Positions 3,908-10,114 of a stretch of DNA of 24,904 nucleotides are shown here, one piece after another. The notes beneath the pieces were generated by a model. It was not told the origin of the DNA and did not search any database. It worked only from the letters and a program-made list of their open reading frames with translations. This DNA is from Chloroflexota bacterium. Its GTDB lineage: Bacteria; Chloroflexota; Anaerolineae; Anaerolineales; Villigracilaceae. Every line of letters starts with the position of its first letter. Positions within the stretch are counted from its first letter, which is position 1. The position numbers were made by a program, and so were the translations under genes. The stretch spans positions 1 to 24,904 of the forward strand of contig JAKAMM010000002.1 in NCBI GenBank assembly GCA_021812905.1, in the 5' to 3' direction.

Positions 3908-4983
3908 AAATTGCCTGCACGAATTGCGGACAGAAATATCCGGATAGCGGCATGCCGTATCAATGTCCAAATTGCGGCGGATTATTTGACTTGGCCGCGC
4001 CTTTGACCTTCAACCTTCCACCTTCAACATCCAACCGTCCTGGCATCTGGCGCTACGCCTCTTCCTTTGACCTTGATGTGGCTCCCGTTTCATTGGGCGA
4101 AGGCAACACTCCGCTCGTTCCCGCTAAAGCTTTTGGCCGCGAAGTTTTTTTCAAATGCGAATATTCCAATCCAAGCGGGTCATTCAAAGATCGCGGCTCG
4201 GCGACTCTGGTGGCGGCCATGCAAGCGCGCGGCGTGACCGAAGCCATCGAAGATTCTTCTGGTAACGCAGGCGCATCCTTCGCGGCGTACGCGGCGCGTG
4301 CGGGAATCAAAGCGCGCGTGTTTGTGCCTGAATCTGCTTCGGGGCCAAAGCGACTACAAATCGAAATGTATGGCGCAGAATTGATACCTGTGCCTGGTCC
4401 GCGTGCAAACGCGTCGGAAGCGGTTCGCAAGGCTGCCGAGGCTGGAATGATTTATGCCAGTCATGCTTATTTGCCATTCAACATTCCCGGCTATGCCACT
4501 TGCGCGTACGAAATTGTCGAGCAGCTCGGACGCGCTCCCGGCGCGGTCATCATTCCCGCCGGTCAGGGCGGACTCGTGCTTGGCATGGGGCGCGGCTTTG
4601 AAGCAATGTTGAATGCCGACATGGTCGAAAATATGCCGATGCTGGTCGGCGTGCAGGCCAGCGCCTGCCAGCCGCTGGTTGCGCTTTGGAACCATGGTAC
4701 GATGGACGGCGTCAGCGATAACCAGACAGTGGCGGAAGGCGTGCGCGGGCGTTCGTTGCGGGCAAAGGCTGTCGTTGAGATGACGCGTCGAAGCGGCGGC
4801 CGCTTTATGTCCGTGGATGAAGCGTTTATCCTGTCCGGGCGTGACGCATTAGCGCGTCTGGGGTTTTATGTAGAGCCTACGTCGGCGCTCGTCTGGCACG
4901 CGTTGGAGGAAAATATTCTAAGTTTGCCCGATCCGGTTGTGGTTGTGCTGACCGGTTCAGGTTTGAAATCGTTGAGCGAATAA
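3904..4983 (+). CDS. thrC: Threonine synthase with N-terminal zinc ribbon
   Basis: This PLP enzyme would convert O-phosphohomoserine to threonine. The first 26 residues form a zinc ribbon with two C-x2-C pairs (CTNC near residue 5 and CPNC near residue 23). The fold II domain follows: K95 in SGSFKDRGS is the Schiff-base lysine, SSGNAGASFAAYAARAG binds the cofactor phosphate side, and LTGSGLKS closes the protein. The 359-residue length is normal. Residues of about 34-45, between ribbon and catalytic domain, are encoded by an ACCTTCAAC-type repeat and look like a repeat-derived linker. The start overlaps the GNAT stop by 4 bases. A related PLP enzyme acting on another amino acid is possible but less likely. 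Confidence 0.88.
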   Translation: MKIACTNCGQKYPDSGMPYQCPNCGGLFDLAAPLTFNLPPSTSNRPGIWRYASSFDLDVAPVSLGEGNTPLVPAKAFGREVFFKCEYSNPSGSFKDRGSATLVAAMQARGVTEAIEDSSGNAGASFAAYAARAGIKARVFVPESASGPKRLQIEMYGAELIPVPGPRANASEAVRKAAEAGMIYASHAYLPFNIPGYATCAYEIVEQLGRAPGAVIIPAGQGGLVLGMGRGFEAMLNADMVENMPMLVGVQASACQPLVALWNHGTMDGVSDNQTVAEGVRGRSLRAKAVVEMTRRSGGRFMSVDEAFILSGRDALARLGFYVEPTSALVWHALEENILSLPDPVVVVLTGSGLKSLSE

Positions 4984-4993
4984 CGGAGGTTTT

Positions 4994-6232
4994 ATGGAAC
5001 GCATTGTTATCACGGGCATGGGCACGGTCAACCCGCTGGGCTTGAATGTGGCCGAGACGTGGAAAAATGTGACCAACGGCGTTTCGGGTGTGGCGCCCAT
5101 CGCGCAGTTCGACGCCAGCAATTTACAGGTGCAGATTGCCTGTGAACTGAAAGGCTTTGAGCCGGATAAATTTATGGACGCCAAGGAGTCCCGTCGCCGT
5201 GATCGTTTTGAACAGATGGCGACCGCAGCCGCGAATGAGGCTCTGAGAAATTCGGGCTTGGAAATCACAGATTCCAACACAGCTCGCACCGGTGTGATCA
5301 TTTCTTCTGCGATTGGAGGATTGAAATCTTTTCAGGATGCGGTTATCACGGATGTGACCGAAGGGCCGCGGCGCGTCAGCCCGTTTTTGATCCCGATGCT
5401 GATGTCGAATGGCGGCGCAGGCATTGTGGCGATCGATCATGGCATTAAAGGTCCGTGCTTCTCTGTTGCATCGGCCTGCGCTTCTGGCGCGGACGGAATT
5501 GGCATGGCTTTCATGATGCTGCGCGCTGGGATGATCGATGCTTGTTTGGCGGGCGCATCCGAGTCTACGGTGGCGCATATCGGCGTGGCGGCCTTTGACC
5601 GCATCGGCGCCATGTCGCGCCACAATGAGGATTATTCGATGACTCCCCAGCCGTTCGATAGGAATCGCGATGGGCTGGTGATGGGCGAGGGCGCGGCCGT
5701 GCTGGCGCTCGAGAGCGAGTCGCACGCCAAAGCGCGCGGTGCGAATATTCTGGCGGAGTTGGCTGGTTATGGGTCAACTGCCGACGCGTATCACGTTACG
5801 GCTCCGCAGGAATTCGGGGAGGGCGGCGCGGCGGCCATTCGTCAGGCTTTGTATTCGGCGCAGGCCAACGCAGACGATGTGGGTTACATCAGCGCTCACG
5901 GCACGGGAACACAATTGAATGATCAATCAGAGACGCGCGCGGTCAAGGCGGCCTTTGGCGCAGATCTTGCTCATAAAATCCCGATCTCCTCGACCAAGTC
6001 CATGACCGGGCATATGATGGGCGCGACCGGCGCGCTGGAAGTTATCTTCTGTGTGCAGGCGGTGCGCGAAGGACTGCTTCCACCCACCATTCATTACGAA
6101 ACGCCCGACCCCGAATGTGATCTGGACTACATTCCGAACAAGGCGCGTGAGAAAAAGGTCACTATGGCGATCAGCAATGCTTTTGGATTTGGCGGTCACA
6201 ACGCTGTACTGGCGGTGAGGAAATACCAGTAG
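4994..6232 (+). CDS. fabF: Beta-ketoacyl-ACP synthase II
   Basis: This 412-residue condensing enzyme has the full KAS II triad: C162 in SVASACASG, H302 in SAHGTGT, and H340 in KSMTGHMMGATGA, with the C-terminal glycine loop NAFGFGGHN. It would elongate acyl-ACP with malonyl-ACP in fatty acid synthesis. Length and motifs are standard. GGAGG lies 5 bases before the ATG. It follows threonine synthase by 10 bases, although the two pathways are unrelated. The last two codons and the stop belong to a degenerate seven-base repeat that continues into the intergenic region. Some homologues serve polyketide or specialised lipid synthesis, but there is no ACP or ketoreductase gene nearby to support that. 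Confidence 0.93.
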   Translation: MERIVITGMGTVNPLGLNVAETWKNVTNGVSGVAPIAQFDASNLQVQIACELKGFEPDKFMDAKESRRRDRFEQMATAAANEALRNSGLEITDSNTARTGVIISSAIGGLKSFQDAVITDVTEGPRRVSPFLIPMLMSNGGAGIVAIDHGIKGPCFSVASACASGADGIGMAFMMLRAGMIDACLAGASESTVAHIGVAAFDRIGAMSRHNEDYSMTPQPFDRNRDGLVMGEGAAVLALESESHAKARGANILAELAGYGSTADAYHVTAPQEFGEGGAAAIRQALYSAQANADDVGYISAHGTGTQLNDQSETRAVKAAFGADLAHKIPISSTKSMTGHMMGATGALEVIFCVQAVREGLLPPTIHYETPDPECDLDYIPNKAREKKVTMAISNAFGFGGHNAVLAVRKYQ

Positions 6233-6272
6233 GCAGTGGTCAGTAATCAGTGGTCAGTTGTCAGTAAACAGT
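6224..6272 (+). repeat. Degenerate heptamer tandem repeat (NNNCAGT)x7
   Basis: Seven consecutive seven-base units end in CAGT: taccagt, aggcagt, ggtcagt, aatcagt, ggtcagt, tgtcagt and aaacagt. The first units cover the last codons and TAG stop of fabF; the rest are intergenic. Each unit keeps CAGT in exact register while the first three bases vary. Confidence 0.8.
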
Positions 6273-6300
6273 TTCTAGCCACCTGACAGTTTCATCAGCA

Positions 6301-6348
6301 TGGTGGTCGAGTAGCCCCGAGTGCAGTTCGAGGGGCGTATCGAGACCA
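6301..6348 (-). repeat. REP-like palindromic intergenic element
   Basis: The element is bounded by TGGTCGAGTAG (6304-6314) and CGTATCGAGACCA (6336-6348). Its core is GCCCC at 6314-6318 pairing with GGGGC at 6332-6336. On the minus strand it reads TGGTCTCGATACG...CTACTCGACCA, which I recall as the ends of a dispersed intergenic repeat seen in many bacterial genomes. That recognition is from memory. It lies between fabF and the rplS promoter. Confidence 0.5.
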
Positions 6349-6382
6349 TATTTACGGGAATTTTCGGTTTTCAGTCGCGGGC

Positions 6383-6411
6383 TTGTGAAAGCAGAATTTG
6401 CGTGCTATAAT
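6383..6411 (+). promoter_or_regulatory. Promoter of rplS
   Basis: TTGTGA at 6383-6388 and a perfect TATAAT at 6406-6411 are separated by exactly 17 bases. The expected start is near 6418, giving a leader of about 45 bases to the rplS start codon. This separates rplS transcription from the upstream fabF operon. Confidence 0.78.
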
Positions 6412-6462
6412 CCGCCGTCGCTTAAAAAAGAATATATTTTCATATCGTAAGGAAGAATGGCA

Positions 6463-6810
6463 ATGACAGACATGATAAAGGCCGTTGAGGCCAAGAAGAA
6501 CGAGAATATCCCTGAACTGCGCTCCGGTGATTCTGTTAATGTGCATGTCAAGATCAAAGAAGGCGATCGCGAGCGCATTCAGGAATTCAAGGGCATCGTC
6601 ATCCGCTTGCGCAAGGGAGGTAACGATGCGAACATTACCGTCCGCCGTATGGCTTCCAACGGCATCGGTGTCGAACGCACTTTCCTGCTCCGTTCGCCGC
6701 GCATTGACAAGGTGGTGGTCGAACGCCACAATCAGGTGAACCGCGCGCAGCTCTACTTTATGCGCGGCCGCACGGGCAAGTCGGCCCGACTCAAACAGAA
6801 ATTCGACTAG
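6463..6810 (+). CDS. rplS: 50S ribosomal protein L19 (bL19)
   Basis: This 115-residue basic protein is bL19, located at the 30S-50S interface of the large ribosomal subunit. Family signatures are IPELRSGDSVNVHVKIKEG, RERIQEFKGIVIR, GVERTFLLRSPRIDKV, and the C-terminal AQLYFMRGRTGKSARLKQ. Two ATGs are possible. The one at 6463 is preferred because AGGAAG at 6450-6455 lies 7 bases before it, whereas it nearly touches the ATG at 6457. Unlike many genomes, the usual rpsP-rimM-trmD neighbours are not adjacent. The gene has its own promoter and a strong hairpin just after its stop, so it is close to a single-gene unit. Confidence 0.97.
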   Translation: MTDMIKAVEAKKNENIPELRSGDSVNVHVKIKEGDRERIQEFKGIVIRLRKGGNDANITVRRMASNGIGVERTFLLRSPRIDKVVVERHNQVNRAQLYFMRGRTGKSARLKQKFD

Positions 6811-6815
6811 ACTCA

Positions 6816-6853
6816 AAAGTCAAAGGGCGCAGGCAACTGCGCCCTTTGACTTT
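6816..6853 (+). terminator. Perfect 17-bp stem-loop after rplS
   Basis: The arm at 6816-6832 is a perfect reverse complement of 6837-6853, with a GCAA tetraloop at 6833-6836. The stem lies 5 bases after the rplS stop. No long T tract follows (only TTTAGC), so it may act as a weak terminator, an mRNA-stabilising or processing hairpin, or both. The next gene's ribosome site begins 3 bases after the stem. Confidence 0.65.
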
Positions 6854-6864
6854 AGCAGGTGACC

Positions 6865-7578
6865 ATGCAACCCATTATCGGAATCACCACAACCGAAGGC
6901 AAGAATATTCACGGTTTTTCCACAACTAACTTGATGCAATCATACAGCAAGGCTGTTATGCAGGCGGGCGGTGTGCCGGTTTTGATTCCGTCCATGCTGG
7001 CTGAAAGCGGATGGGATGCGCTCTATTCCCGGCTCGATGGGCTGCTTTTCGCCGGCGGCGGGGACATTTCTCTTGAGTATTTTGCAGGCGAAGCGCATCC
7101 CCGCATCGATGAAGTGGATCCGTTGCGGGACGTCATTGAAATGAACTTGATCCAAGCCGCAGCCGCAGACGGAAAACCCTTCCTCGGCATCTGCCGCGGA
7201 GTGCAGGCTGTCAACGTGGCGTTGGGCGGAACGCTTTATACGCACATTCCTGACCAATTACCAAACGCGCTCGATCATTCATATCCCGGCAACATGTTTA
7301 CCGTGTTGGTGCATGAAGTCAAGATCGAAGAAGGCACGCACATCGCAGAAGTATTGGGAGAGCCGATTGTCAAGGTCAACAGTTTGCATCATCAGGGTTT
7401 GAAAGACATCGCGCCGAGTCTGCGCGTCACCGGCCACGCTCCGGATGGATTGGTGGAAGCTGTCGAATTGCCCAACCATCCATTTGGCATCGCCGTTCAA
7501 TGGCATCCCGAATGGTTGACGGATCAACAACCAACAAGAAATTTGTTCAGGAAATTTGTAGAAGCGGCGGGGAAATAA
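6865..7578 (+). CDS. Gamma-glutamyl-gamma-aminobutyrate hydrolase family protein (peptidase C26)
   Basis: This 237-residue class I glutamine-amidotransferase-like hydrolase has its nucleophile C110 in LGICRGVQ, and H214 and E216 in VQWHPEW complete the catalytic triad. The PuuD family hydrolyses gamma-glutamyl bonds, classically in putrescine breakdown; no other polyamine genes are nearby, so the substrate is open. FAGGGDISLEYF and NSLHHQG are typical of C26 members. The ATG at 6865 is chosen over the in-frame GTG at 6859 because AGG at 6857-6859 then lies at normal distance. There is no room for a promoter between the rplS hairpin and this gene, so it probably depends on read-through from rplS. 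Confidence 0.85.
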   Translation: MQPIIGITTTEGKNIHGFSTTNLMQSYSKAVMQAGGVPVLIPSMLAESGWDALYSRLDGLLFAGGGDISLEYFAGEAHPRIDEVDPLRDVIEMNLIQAAAADGKPFLGICRGVQAVNVALGGTLYTHIPDQLPNALDHSYPGNMFTVLVHEVKIEEGTHIAEVLGEPIVKVNSLHHQGLKDIAPSLRVTGHAPDGLVEAVELPNHPFGIAVQWHPEWLTDQQPTRNLFRKFVEAAGK

Positions 7579-7607
7579 ATTTTACAAATAAACCGCGAAT
7601 TGGGCGC

Positions 7608-7637
7608 TTTACATTTTGCATGTTTACGTTTTATCAT
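7608..7637 (+). promoter_or_regulatory. Relict murI promoter
   Basis: TTTACA at 7608-7613 and TATCAT at 7632-7637 are 18 bases apart, and the -10 box ends 5 bases before the ATG of the murI fragment at 7643. The arrangement mirrors the leaderless layout of intact murI, suggesting this was the original murI promoter. The rest of 7579-7642 shows nothing else. Confidence 0.45.
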
Positions 7638-7642
7638 TTTTT

Positions 7643-7747
7643 ATGCCCTCGCAACAAAATCCCCTCGATGTATTTGACTCGGGCGTCGGCGGACTTTCCG
7701 CCGAAAGTGCGTGCGATATTCTACAATTTTTCCCAGTCTTCGCGTGA
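7643..7747 (+). pseudogene. Truncated 5' fragment of murI (glutamate racemase)
   Basis: The ATG at 7643 opens a frame whose residues 9-19, DVFDSGVGGLS preceded by MPSQQNPL, match the N terminus of glutamate racemase. After TCC at 7699 homology stops and the frame runs 15 unrelated codons to TGA at 7745. Bases 7669-7699 match bases 8250-8280 of intact murI at 30 of 31 positions. The fragment lacks both catalytic cysteines and cannot be a working racemase. Its tail overlaps the 3' end of hicA on the other strand. It is best read as the original murI start, left behind when hicBA was inserted. Confidence 0.8.
7669..7699 (+). repeat. Left copy of 31-bp direct repeat flanking hicBA
   Basis: Runs from TGTATTTGACTC to GGACTTTCC and pairs with 8250-8280 in the same orientation. 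The single mismatch is G at 7681 against C at 8262. Immediately after it, ACTTTC at 7693-7698 and GAAAGT at 7703-7708 form a small inverted repeat at the breakpoint. Confidence 0.85.
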
Positions 7748-7939
7748 GATGCCCGCCTGTTTTAAAATCCTGGAAAGCAAGTCTTTGCCAGTTTCTCCCT
7801 GATGCGGGTTTGGCAATGTTAACCGCAAATTCTCCCTCACCATAAATTCATGTTTACCGCCTGCATGAGGCCCGTCAAAGCCAGCTTGTTTCAAGGCGCG
7901 TATCAAATCTTTGCGCTTGATTGAACCAAATAGGGGCAT
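7721..7939 (-). CDS. hicA: HicA family mRNA interferase toxin
   Basis: This 72-residue basic protein matches the YcfA/HicA family: a double-stranded-RNA-binding-like fold with KRKDLIRALKQAGF, the catalytic His30 in GGKHEFMV, and LPNPHQGETGKDLLSRILKQAGIS. HicA toxins cleave mRNA when free of HicB. The ATG at 7939 overlaps the hicB TAA stop by one base (TAATG), so translation is coupled to the antitoxin, which is made first. The 3' end overlaps the murI fragment on the opposite strand. Length is normal and the catalytic histidine is present, so the toxin looks intact. Confidence 0.9.
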   Translation of the reverse strand: MPLFGSIKRKDLIRALKQAGFDGPHAGGKHEFMVRENLRLTLPNPHQGETGKDLLSRILKQAGISREDWEKL

Positions 7940-8178
7940 TAATGCGCCTCAACGGGCGTAAGGTTAATTCCTGCAACAACGGGCAGTTCGTGTCCCATAC
8001 GCAGGCCTAGTACAAGCCAGTCTTCCAGTGCGCTCTGCAATTCCTCCCGGCAGGCATCTAGTGAATCCGCATTTGCCCATACTCCCTGAAAGCCGGGGAT
8101 TTCACCGTAATAGGTGTGATCCTCAAGGATTTCATATTTTGCCAGCAACATCGCGGCATGAATGTATGAAGTTAACAT
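7939..8178 (-). CDS. hicB: HicB family antitoxin
   Basis: This 79-residue protein has the short HicB pattern: a pseudo-RNase-H strand region AKYEILEDHTYYGEIPGFQGVWANADSLDACREEL, then a helix LQSALEDWLVLGLRMGHELP and the GINL tail. HicB binds and blocks HicA and often represses its own promoter. There is no obvious C-terminal ribbon-helix-helix or HTH extension, so DNA binding by this short form is uncertain. The ribosome site AAGGA lies 7 bases before the ATG. The order antitoxin-toxin is the hicB-hicA arrangement. It is divergent from murI with only 42 bases between start codons. Confidence 0.9.
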   Translation of the reverse strand: MLTSYIHAAMLLAKYEILEDHTYYGEIPGFQGVWANADSLDACREELQSALEDWLVLGLRMGHELPVVAGINLTPVEAH

Positions 8179-8199
8179 TTTGTTTTCCTTTCACGATTC

Positions 8200-8236
8200 A
8201 TAATATATTATACTTTCCCTATGCTATCACATGCAA
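8200..8236 (-). promoter_or_regulatory. hicBA promoter overlapping the murI promoter, with AT palindrome
   Basis: On the minus strand TTGCAT (8236-8231, inside the murI coding start) and TATAAT (8212-8207) are 18 bases apart. On the plus strand TATACT at 8209-8214 is the likely murI -10 box. The perfect 12-base palindrome ATAATATATTAT at 8200-8211 covers both boxes and could be an operator. The boxes and palindrome are seen; regulation is inferred. Confidence 0.5.
8209..8220 (+). promoter_or_regulatory. Probable leaderless start of intact murI
   Basis: TATACT at 8209-8214 ends 6 bases before the ATG at 8221. The intervening TTCCCT is not a ribosome site, so the mRNA probably begins at or next to the start codon. 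No good -35 is visible at 16-18 bases upstream. Confidence 0.45.
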
Positions 8237-9048
8237 ACTCATCCATCGGTGTATTTGACTCCGGCGTCGGCGGACTTTCCGTACTGCGCGCCATTCGTGA
8301 GCTGATGCCCGAAGAGTCGGTCATTTATTTTGGCGATCAAAGGCATGTGCCATACGGGCCGCGTCCGATGAAGCAGATCCAAAACTTCTCGGAGGGGATT
8401 GTGAGATTTTTACTTGAGCAAAATGCAAAAATAATTGTCGTGGCTTGTAACACGGCCTCCGCCGCGGCTTTGAAATTTCTGCGCGAAACATTTCCAAATA
8501 TTTCCTTCGTCGGCATGGAACCGGCCGTTAAGCCTGCCGCCGAGTGGACGGAATCCGGTGTGGTCGGAGTCTTGGCAACACCTGCAACGTTTCAGGGCGC
8601 GTTGTACGCGTCGGTGGTGGAAAGATTTGCAACAGGCGTAGAGTTGTTGCAAAGCACGTGTTTGGGATTGGTACAGCAAATCGAGAAGGGCGATCTGGAT
8701 GGGCCGGAGACGCGTCATATTTTGGAAGATGCGCTTCATCCGATGCTTGCGCAAAATATTGACACAGTGGTTTTGGGCTGTACCCACTATCCGTTTGTGA
8801 TCCCGCTTATTGAGCGGATCGTGGGGGACAAGGTGCGGGTGATTGACCCGGCTCCCTCGGTGGCGAGGCAGGCCAAACGTCTGCTTGAAGCGGATGGCTT
8901 GAAGCTCCCGGCGGGGACGCGTGGAGATGTCCGCTATTTTACGTCTGGCCCGGCGGACGCGATGCAAAGCCTGTTGCTAAAGTTGCTGGGGAAAGGTGGA
9001 AATGTTCAATCTGTGACGTGGCTGGATGATCATACGGTTATGTTGTGA
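8221..9048 (+). CDS. murI: Glutamate racemase MurI
   Basis: Glutamate racemase makes D-glutamate for peptidoglycan in the cytosol. The 275-residue protein is complete: IGVFDSGVGGLS with D13-S14 at the N terminus, catalytic C76 in ACNTASA, catalytic C187 followed by T188-H189 in GCTHYPF, and VIDPA near the C terminus. The first 20 codons are duplicated upstream in a fragment at 7643, and the two copies differ in the leading residues (MLSHANSSIG here). The gene starts without a ribosome site behind a -10 box shared with the divergent hicBA promoter. Its last 11 bases overlap the end of the convergent gene at 9038-10114. Confidence 0.96.
   Translation: MLSHANSSIGVFDSGVGGLSVLRAIRELMPEESVIYFGDQRHVPYGPRPMKQIQNFSEGIVRFLLEQNAKIIVVACNTASAAALKFLRETFPNISFVGMEPAVKPAAEWTESGVVGVLATPATFQGALYASVVERFATGVELLQSTCLGLVQQIEKGDLDGPETRHILEDALHPMLAQNIDTVVLGCTHYPFVIPLIERIVGDKVRVIDPAPSVARQAKRLLEADGLKLPAGTRGDVRYFTSGPADAMQSLLLKLLGKGGNVQSVTWLDDHTVML
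8250..8280 (+). repeat. Right copy of 31-bp direct repeat flanking hicBA
   Basis: Lies within codons 10-20 of intact murI and matches 7669-7699 at 30 of 31 bases. Recombination between the copies would delete about 581 bases, removing hicB and hicA and fusing the upstream start to the rest of murI in the same frame. Confidence 0.85.
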
Positions 9049-10114
9049 TGCGGACGCCCATTTGCTCCATGTCTTTGAAAAGACGATCCGGCTCGGCCAG
9101 ATGTCCCATCATGTGCAGGCCGGGACGCCGAGCCTCATTATATTGCATTATGAACGCGACGACGGGAATCGCGGTGAACTCGTAACCGTCCTCATGTTCG
9201 CTTCTCACACGGACCTCGAGCGGGCGTCCGTTTAATTGGCCTTTGGCTTCGACTGCCAGCACCACGCGATAAGGAGGCTTCGGAAGTTTGGTCATGATCC
9301 ACCACATGAGTTTGCCCATCGGCCTGAGTCCGCGTTTGGGCGCGATCTTCAAGCCGAGCAAAACGATCATGGTCAGTGAATCCGCCAGCCAGCCTCCACC
9401 TGCCATGTAGAAGCCGACATTTTTCAAGGATGGATACATTTCCGGCAGGGCGCGCAACTCTTCAAAGAACATGGAATAACAATCGCGTTTGCCGATGCCT
9501 TCGCCGAAATCGAATTTGCAAATATCGTAGGAAGTTGATTTTGTCCACGCGCCGTTTTTGTAAACTTGAGTTTGGTAATCAATGAAACTTTCCATTAATT
9601 CATCCACGGCATCGGTGTAAGGCATGGATGTGCCGACGTTCAAATAACCGGCAGTCGAGGCGGACTCAATGCTGTCCATTTTGGATGCGGCATAACGGAT
9701 CAGCGCAGCAGGCAGGCCGGGATGGAATCCTGCTTCGGTGATAAAACATAATTTTTTGTCTTGAATTTCTTTTGCATGAGCGTTCAAGATTTTTATTTTC
9801 TCGGGCGAGAATTGCACATCGAGATAATCCACGCCTGCGTCGAGTGCGGCGCGGATAACTGTCTCGGTATGATGAGTCGTCGGCGCGGCGACCAGCAAAA
9901 AGTCCACGCCCTGAAGTGCATTTTTCAGGCTGACAGAATCCGACGCATCCACTTGTCGGGCTGTGGCGCGTGAATCGTGAAGTTCATCCACGAGAGTCTG
10001 CGCTTTGTCGAGATGTCGTCCGGCAATGACGATTTGATATTTTGTTTGCGCAAGTAAATGTTTGGCGAGTAATCTGCCAGTGTAGCCATATCCGCCGAGA
10101 ATCAAGATGTTCAC
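9038..10114 (-). CDS. Saccharopine dehydrogenase-like NAD(P)-binding protein
   Basis: This 358-residue protein begins with a Rossmann fingerprint, NILILGGYGYTGRLLAKHL (G7, G10 and G13), followed by VIAGRHLDKA and LLVAAPTTHHTETVIRAALDAGVDYLDV, as in saccharopine-dehydrogenase-like (Sacchrp_dh_NADP) oxidoreductases. The C-terminal half has no signature tying it to lysine metabolism, so the substrate is unknown; related proteins include trans-acting enoyl reductases. It starts at GTG, preceded by GGGAGGG inside the end of the ICMT-like gene, one base after that gene's stop. The two are an obvious operon. The 3' end overlaps murI by 11 bases tail to tail. Confidence 0.78.
   Translation of the reverse strand: MNILILGGYGYTGRLLAKHLLAQTKYQIVIAGRHLDKAQTLVDELHDSRATARQVDASDSVSLKNALQGVDFLLVAAPTTHHTETVIRAALDAGVDYLDVQFSPEKIKILNAHAKEIQDKKLCFITEAGFHPGLPAALIRYAASKMDSIESASTAGYLNVGTSMPYTDAVDELMESFIDYQTQVYKNGAWTKSTSYDICKFDFGEGIGKRDCYSMFFEELRALPEMYPSLKNVGFYMAGGGWLADSLTMIVLLGLKIAPKRGLRPMGKLMWWIMTKLPKPPYRVVLAVEAKGQLNGRPLEVRVRSEHEDGYEFTAIPVVAFIMQYNEARRPGLHMMGHLAEPDRLFKDMEQMGVRITT

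Follow-up and report, generated by a model that had tools for sequence, protein, structure and literature searches.

The closest described systems are elements that insert at the 5′ end of a host gene, namely the dusA 5′-end islands (IMEVchUSA3) and the ICE SXT at prfC, for both of which the same layout is stated in the section of PMC8409611 drawn on here. These elements and the locus reported below are alike in having an insert at a 5′ end, a core direct repeat, and a new leader/promoter region and N-terminus, in our case at the level of sequence. The elements covered in that section are, however, large and carry int, whereas our insert measures about 0.55 kb and holds only hicBA (PMC8409611). 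A second precedent is provided by E. coli, in which ligation of linear DNA can produce a circle that enters by a RecA-dependent single crossover, and by homology-facilitated illegitimate recombination, which typically couples insertion to a deletion of similar size (PMC3240628, in the passages on these two routes). The likeness to our region is that short one-sided homology suffices, and that crossover of a circle predicts a stub, a cargo, and a rebuilt gene; the illegitimate type, in contrast, typically deletes resident DNA (PMC3240628), whereas our region duplicates a gene end. Orphan Rhs toxin fragments, as presented in the relevant part of PMC3967940, likewise combine a gene fragment with a toxin/immunity pair beside the main gene, but in the Rhs case the toxin gene is itself the host gene, whereas here that role falls to an unrelated essential gene. 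In the open-licence PMC literature, as judged from titles and the beginnings of abstracts, we recognised no description of toxin–antitoxin cassettes bounded by host gene ends. In our view, the spread of lone chromosomal toxin–antitoxin modules in the absence of a carrier element still calls for an explanation.

We analysed a 24,904-nt stretch of the genome of an uncultured Chloroflexota bacterium of the order Anaerolineales (contig JAKAMM010000002.1), hereafter the window, in which a small module lies at the start of murI, an essential cell-wall gene. The module, at 7721–8178 on the minus strand, is a predicted hicBA toxin–antitoxin pair composed of the toxin gene hicA (7721–7939; PF07927, 46.7 bits against a cut-off of 27, E = 3.4e-12) and the antitoxin gene hicB (7939–8178; UPF0150 type, 79 aa; UPF0150-like PF21748, 103.9 bits against a cut-off of 27.3, E = 4.2e-30), with hicB overlapping the start of hicA by one base. 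Neither NCBIfam nor PADLOC models gave a match for the window HicA or HicB. As the original prediction had proposed, hicBA is the only cargo, hicA and hicB being the sole genes assigned within the insert; no integrase or recombinase gene was found among the assigned genes, nor was a transposase gene with inverted terminal repeats found in the insert. The borders are not paired by any inverted repeat in the interval 6500–9500. A 14-nt inverted repeat (6671–6684 with 7703–7716) was set aside as probably due to chance.

The pair is enclosed by two copies of a murI 5′ segment in direct orientation, located on the plus strand at 7662–7700 and 8243–8281. The copies are 39 nt long and identical at 36 of 39 positions (mismatches at 7664, 7668, and 7681), are spaced 581 nt apart, and have the murI reading frame in common. 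In a BLAST self-comparison of the window, they formed the sole pair of their class (at least 30 nt, at least 80% identity, spacing of 150–2500; E = 3.8e-9). The flanking repeat that had been predicted was thus borne out, with a core that measured 32 nt with 31 matches instead of the proposed 31 nt with 30, and the homology to murI does stop at TTTCC as proposed, apart from running one base further, to TTTCCG. On the upstream side lies the peptidase C26 gene (6859–7578, plus strand; PF07722), the native upstream neighbour of murI, both genes being present in 64 of 80 relatives' loci. It is followed by the stub at 7643–7700 (plus strand), which comprises codons 1–19 of murI and one base, and whose frame reads MPSQQNPLDVFDSGVGGLS, then 15 unrelated codons and a stop. 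Regarding the earlier suggestion that this stub retains its own start and promoter, the ATG at 7643 is present, and promoter-like boxes at 7608–7637 (plus strand; TTTACA, 18 nt, TATCAT) agree with the consensus at 10 of 12 positions, but this is a consensus match only and the support is weak, with two promoter-like sites in the region against 1.2 expected in shuffled sequences. On the other side of hicBA, a divergent spacer (8179–8220) contains putative boxes in which a minus-strand TATAAT (8212–8207) overlaps a plus-strand TATTAT (8206–8211), and the intact murI (8221–9048, plus strand) follows, encoding a glutamate racemase (TIGR00067, 200.6 bits against a cut-off of 146.65).

A set of 80 murI loci was kept from a scan of genome contigs, and the closest of these, L001, is collinear with the window and bears one uninterrupted murI in the same gene order; an uninterrupted murI in relatives is what the original prediction had named as support for insertion. 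Window positions 6403–7700 match L001 positions 4748–6046, and window positions 8245–9040 match L001 positions 6010–6805, so that 37 bases of L001 are matched twice by the window, while the window bases in between have no counterpart in L001. Compared with L001 there is no deletion of resident DNA, but instead this 37-nt overlap. The unmatched part includes the 20 nt (7701–7720) that separate the stub from the hicA stop and that also lie outside the stretch common to other hicBA loci. Since L001 is collinear with a single uninterrupted murI, the left stub is evidently the native murI start, and approximately 7701–8242 came in. In the whole genome of L001 (G001), no match to hicBA was found; the murI region does match. 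A tblastn search at E 1e-5 found hicA or hicB in none of the 80 murI-locus stretches, one of which, L003, ends about 1 kb upstream of murI and belongs to a genome, G323, with hicBA elsewhere. Of the two observations that would have spoken against insertion, the first, a stub in a relative without hicBA, was not made: none of the 56 testable murI 5′ ends had a second murI 5′ copy within 1.5 kb upstream.

To the extent that the proteins record it, the two murI starts have different affinities. The protein matches considered across searches were 120 listed of 7964, 120 of 3139, and 120 of 491, and the MurI tree included 118 of 120 listed proteins, without P0123, which has an internal frame difference, and P0182, in which the motif was not found. 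Among the listed proteins, P0124 is sister to the window MurI (support 100/96), to which it is identical at 242 of 266 residues counted from residue 10, and its start, MSSQQNPLG, is like that of the stub, MPSQQNPLD, in agreement with the MPSQQ-type native start expected of close relatives. A leucine common to the stub and P0124 was found in P0124 alone among 214 proteins (of the matches listed); the same residue also occurs in four of the 80 murI loci, all more distant (L069, L072, L074, and L078), which counts against the explanation preferred below. The intact window murI begins with MLSHANSSIG, as do P0126 and P0129 among the matches listed, which belong to another clade, and its first eight codons, MLSHANSS (8221–8244, plus strand), are the segment regarded here as foreign. 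P0124, P0126, and P0129 are known here from protein sequence alone. At positions 28 and 41 the window MurI has the same residues as P0124, whereas P0126 and P0129 differ, and the foreign part would therefore end between codons 9 and 28, the remainder being the native body. The new leader and start align with the murI leader and start of G323, and among the matches listed P0252 has YTFPMLSNASSSIG at the place of the window's YTFPMLSHANSSIG, so the new start is itself recognisably murI-like. Given this murI-like character and its occurrence on MurI proteins from a different clade, an outside origin of the new start is probable; of the two origins initially allowed for it, supply or duplication by the incoming DNA, copying from the resident gene is the less likely. 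A search of viral contigs with the 24 nt that encode the new start was negative. As regards the clade comparison, residues ~50–95 of the P0129 MurI are closer to a P0152-type MurI than to its own clade, which suggests recombination inside murI.

With L001 uninterrupted, the stub P0124-like, and MLSHANSS present in another clade, the insertion of hicBA into murI together with an incoming 5′ end, as originally predicted, is very probably the correct reading of the window. The layout is not unique, as G323, on the contig of L003, has the same one. There the order is fabF, L19, C26, an 80-aa ORF, a murI stub with its own leader, hicA, hicB, and response-regulator-like genes (fabF, L19, and C26 were named by their translations, and the response-regulator-like genes by eye). 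The hicA frame is broken, HicB is 94% identical to the window HicB, the window's divergent spacer is conserved with that of the G323 hicBA up to ~8215, and the homology of the G323 stub to murI ends about 6 nt short of the window's end point. The intact G323 murI is found on this contig in inverted orientation, at a distance of about 11 kb, with a similar start (84–87 nt alike) that is not MLSHANSS, and we infer that an inversion separated the stub from its gene.

The resemblance between G323 and the window could also reflect one old insertion handed down by descent, after which most relatives lost hicBA across the repeat and had the native start restored, a loss that would be harmless given that the repeat is in frame. 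The MurI tree, however, requires at least two changes of the MLSHANSS label, which well-supported forks force, and a single change suffices in 0% of 200 bootstrap trees. Moreover, MLSHANSS is unchanged between MurI proteins that are 83–87% identical, yet native starts differ between close relatives, and the intact G323 murI lacks the MLSHANSS start, so that we regard descent from a single event as distinctly unlikely. The G323 layout also bears on the idea of an assembly chimera, which might be raised since the records of the relatives come from metagenome assemblies, as that of the window may do; counting the window, however, four contigs bear the MLSHANSS MurI as P0121, P0122 and P0123 represent it in separate sources, and an artefact of this kind is extremely improbable.

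Outside the murI context, a search at E 1e-12 or better recovered hicA relatives in 15 of 400 genomes sampled within the order. At the DNA level, the insert had matches at E 0.001, a part of which were short, in 15 of 152 genomes belonging to the family. The hicBA loci have in common the two genes and at most ~37 nt of promoter, while their flanks differ. The likeness to integrating elements pointed out at the outset accordingly extends to the layout, but neither to a recombinase gene nor to common ends beyond the genes and the short promoter. Direct repeats (at least 30 nt, at least 80%) straddle 7 of the 22 other hicBA modules, cut to one frame and with the window left out, compared with 3 of 401 segments taken as controls from the 80 murI loci (p = 4e-8). 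The 22 modules are those obtained after merging duplicates and leaving out L111, which matched hicB alone, and L114, for which tblastn gave no match, and they include L089 and L090, which have short flanks. Two of the seven are doubtful, namely L127, whose 41-nt repeat is like a terminator hairpin, and L098, whose repeats are large duplications; without them the count is 5 of 22, the p value referring to 7 of 22. The other 15 modules have no straddling repeat, which counts against the preferred explanation, and repeats of this class number 15 in 889 kb of the 80 loci, so the class occurs elsewhere as well. Individual hicBA loci presented further arrangements. L122 (5489–7430) has four copies of a 74–94 nt segment encoding …DRRVYVxYGLTEEEIR around hicBA and a TumE-type toxin gene. 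In L121 (6145–6214 and 7904–7973), hicBA adjoins a copy of a GNAT acetyltransferase 3′ end, and a nitronate monooxygenase-like gene separates the two copies of this end. In L089 (1–974), a 102-nt repeat of 95% identity flanks hicBA, forming by eye part of a separate HicB-like gene, and the contig ends at the left copy.

Gene-end copies were also found at gatB, whose 3′ end is a hotspot for small cassettes, several of them toxin–antitoxin-like. Another copy of the gatB 3′ end (at least 55 nt) is situated within 1.5 kb downstream in 10 of 30 gatB loci, G362 included (three of the 30 have less than 700 bp downstream, and a 24-nt match in L160 was not counted), and copies were present in 10 of 21 longer gatB stretches chosen to include positives, with weak matches in L178 and L182 left out. 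For six other genes, end copies amounted to 1 of 523 (0/274 3′ ends and 1/249 5′ ends), a contrast that shows a hotspot and not a rate, gatB having been selected after its copies were seen. In G362, the repeats around hicBA are themselves gatB 3′-end copies, in tandem with a second cassette bearing an aspartyl protease gene. The cargo of the gatB regions encompasses NTase and HEPN, UPF0175 and DUF3368, DUF433 and DUF5615, and PIN. The single hit among the 523, L060 (9089–10335), parallels the window in layout, with a DUF6922 and AbiEii-type pair between a 70-nt copy of an ICMT-like gene start and the intact gene; PADLOC returned weak matches for its NTase. In L119 (6466–7940) and L164–L172, cassettes downstream of gatB are followed by truncated gatB-end copies, sometimes in tandem, before asnS.

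In 14 aligned gatB copies, with positions counted in nt from the end of the stop codon, the inner boundary varies from −57 to −184, whereas the outer boundary falls between −32 and +5, clustering at the gatB stop. Such outer boundaries, the repeated use of the gatB 3′ end in the manner of an attachment site (which counts against the preferred explanation), the nearly identical cut point in G323, and a layout with a core direct repeat and a new leader and N-terminus that fits the section of PMC8409611 drawn on above would all suit an integrase that inserted the module in trans. We nevertheless consider this unlikely: the insert lacks a recombinase gene, a Pfam scan of 19 proteins from the gatB and G323 regions (several without a family) recognised no recombinase or transposase, and one hicBA family is found at different targets with varied boundaries. 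The clustering of outer boundaries at the gatB stop is at odds with a long target-site duplication, in which staggered breakage and fill-in would leave both copies native and the new N-terminus would be a chance reading of the DNA upstream of hicBA. Repeats of ~40–180 nt at several targets would agree with such a duplication, as would L164, where it is the distant copy that is typical and the end of the intact gatB that is odd, but a chance reading does not fit the murI-like new start, with its alignment to the G323 leader and start and its resemblance to P0252, and we judge it highly improbable.

Homologous recombination is preferred over a dedicated integrase because inner boundaries and targets vary and there are no common ends, the varied targets (murI 5′, gatB 3′, and ICMT-like 5′) being counted in its favour. 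Under this explanation, a short piece of foreign DNA with hicBA beside a murI-type 5′ end would have recombined with the resident murI by a crossover within the strongly conserved IGVFDSGVGGLS codons. The resulting locus would retain the old promoter and start as a stub, followed by hicBA and an intact gene whose leader is borrowed and in which eight codons are new. Entry could have occurred as a small circle by one crossover, or as a linear piece recombined at one end and illegitimately joined at the other; at a 3′ end, crossover of a circle would yield a rebuilt gene, cargo, and stub. The ComEC family was present in all 14 genomes, and also in 10 of 14 control genomes including E. coli, so it is no proof of competence, although uptake is possible, while Ku was found in none of the 14, which makes Ku-type ligation of a circle unlikely. 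Expression of murI would proceed from the new start, the leader of this essential gene now adjoining the predicted toxin–antitoxin promoter. Deletion across the new direct repeat would easily remove other cargo, whereas addiction would select against cells losing hicBA, so that toxin–antitoxin cargo would last and hicBA would be retained. Counted against this last step, plasmid stabilisation by the ccdAB addiction module was only modest in PMC4927057. As a whole, this recombination route with retention by addiction seems to us evenly balanced between being right and being wrong. The window nonetheless preserves readable scars, namely the native stub, the foreign start, the direct repeat, and parallels at other gene ends, and the hypothesis that homology at gene ends brings the module in while addiction, acting against deletion across the repeat, keeps it is made testable.

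Integron gene cassettes are small, often carry toxin–antitoxin genes, and are sometimes in tandem, and the gatB-region cassettes can be likened to them in these respects. They differ in that the boundaries here are host gene ends and no integrase was seen. Tentatively, and with more doubt than confidence, we raise the possibility that Anaerolineales relatives harbour a recombinase-less traffic of toxin–antitoxin or small-gene units of ~0.5–1 kb that would land at the ends of essential genes (murI 5′, gatB 3′, and others), rebuild the gene each time, could stack in tandem, and would be kept by addiction, resembling integrons with host gene ends in place of attC. Two smaller features were also recorded. 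In L037 (6824–7405), a DUF2281-type gene close to the end of the contig is enclosed by a 37-nt direct repeat that lies downstream of murI, and in the window the L19 gene is followed by a terminator-like inverted repeat (6816–6853), whose 17-nt arms match perfectly around a 4-nt loop.
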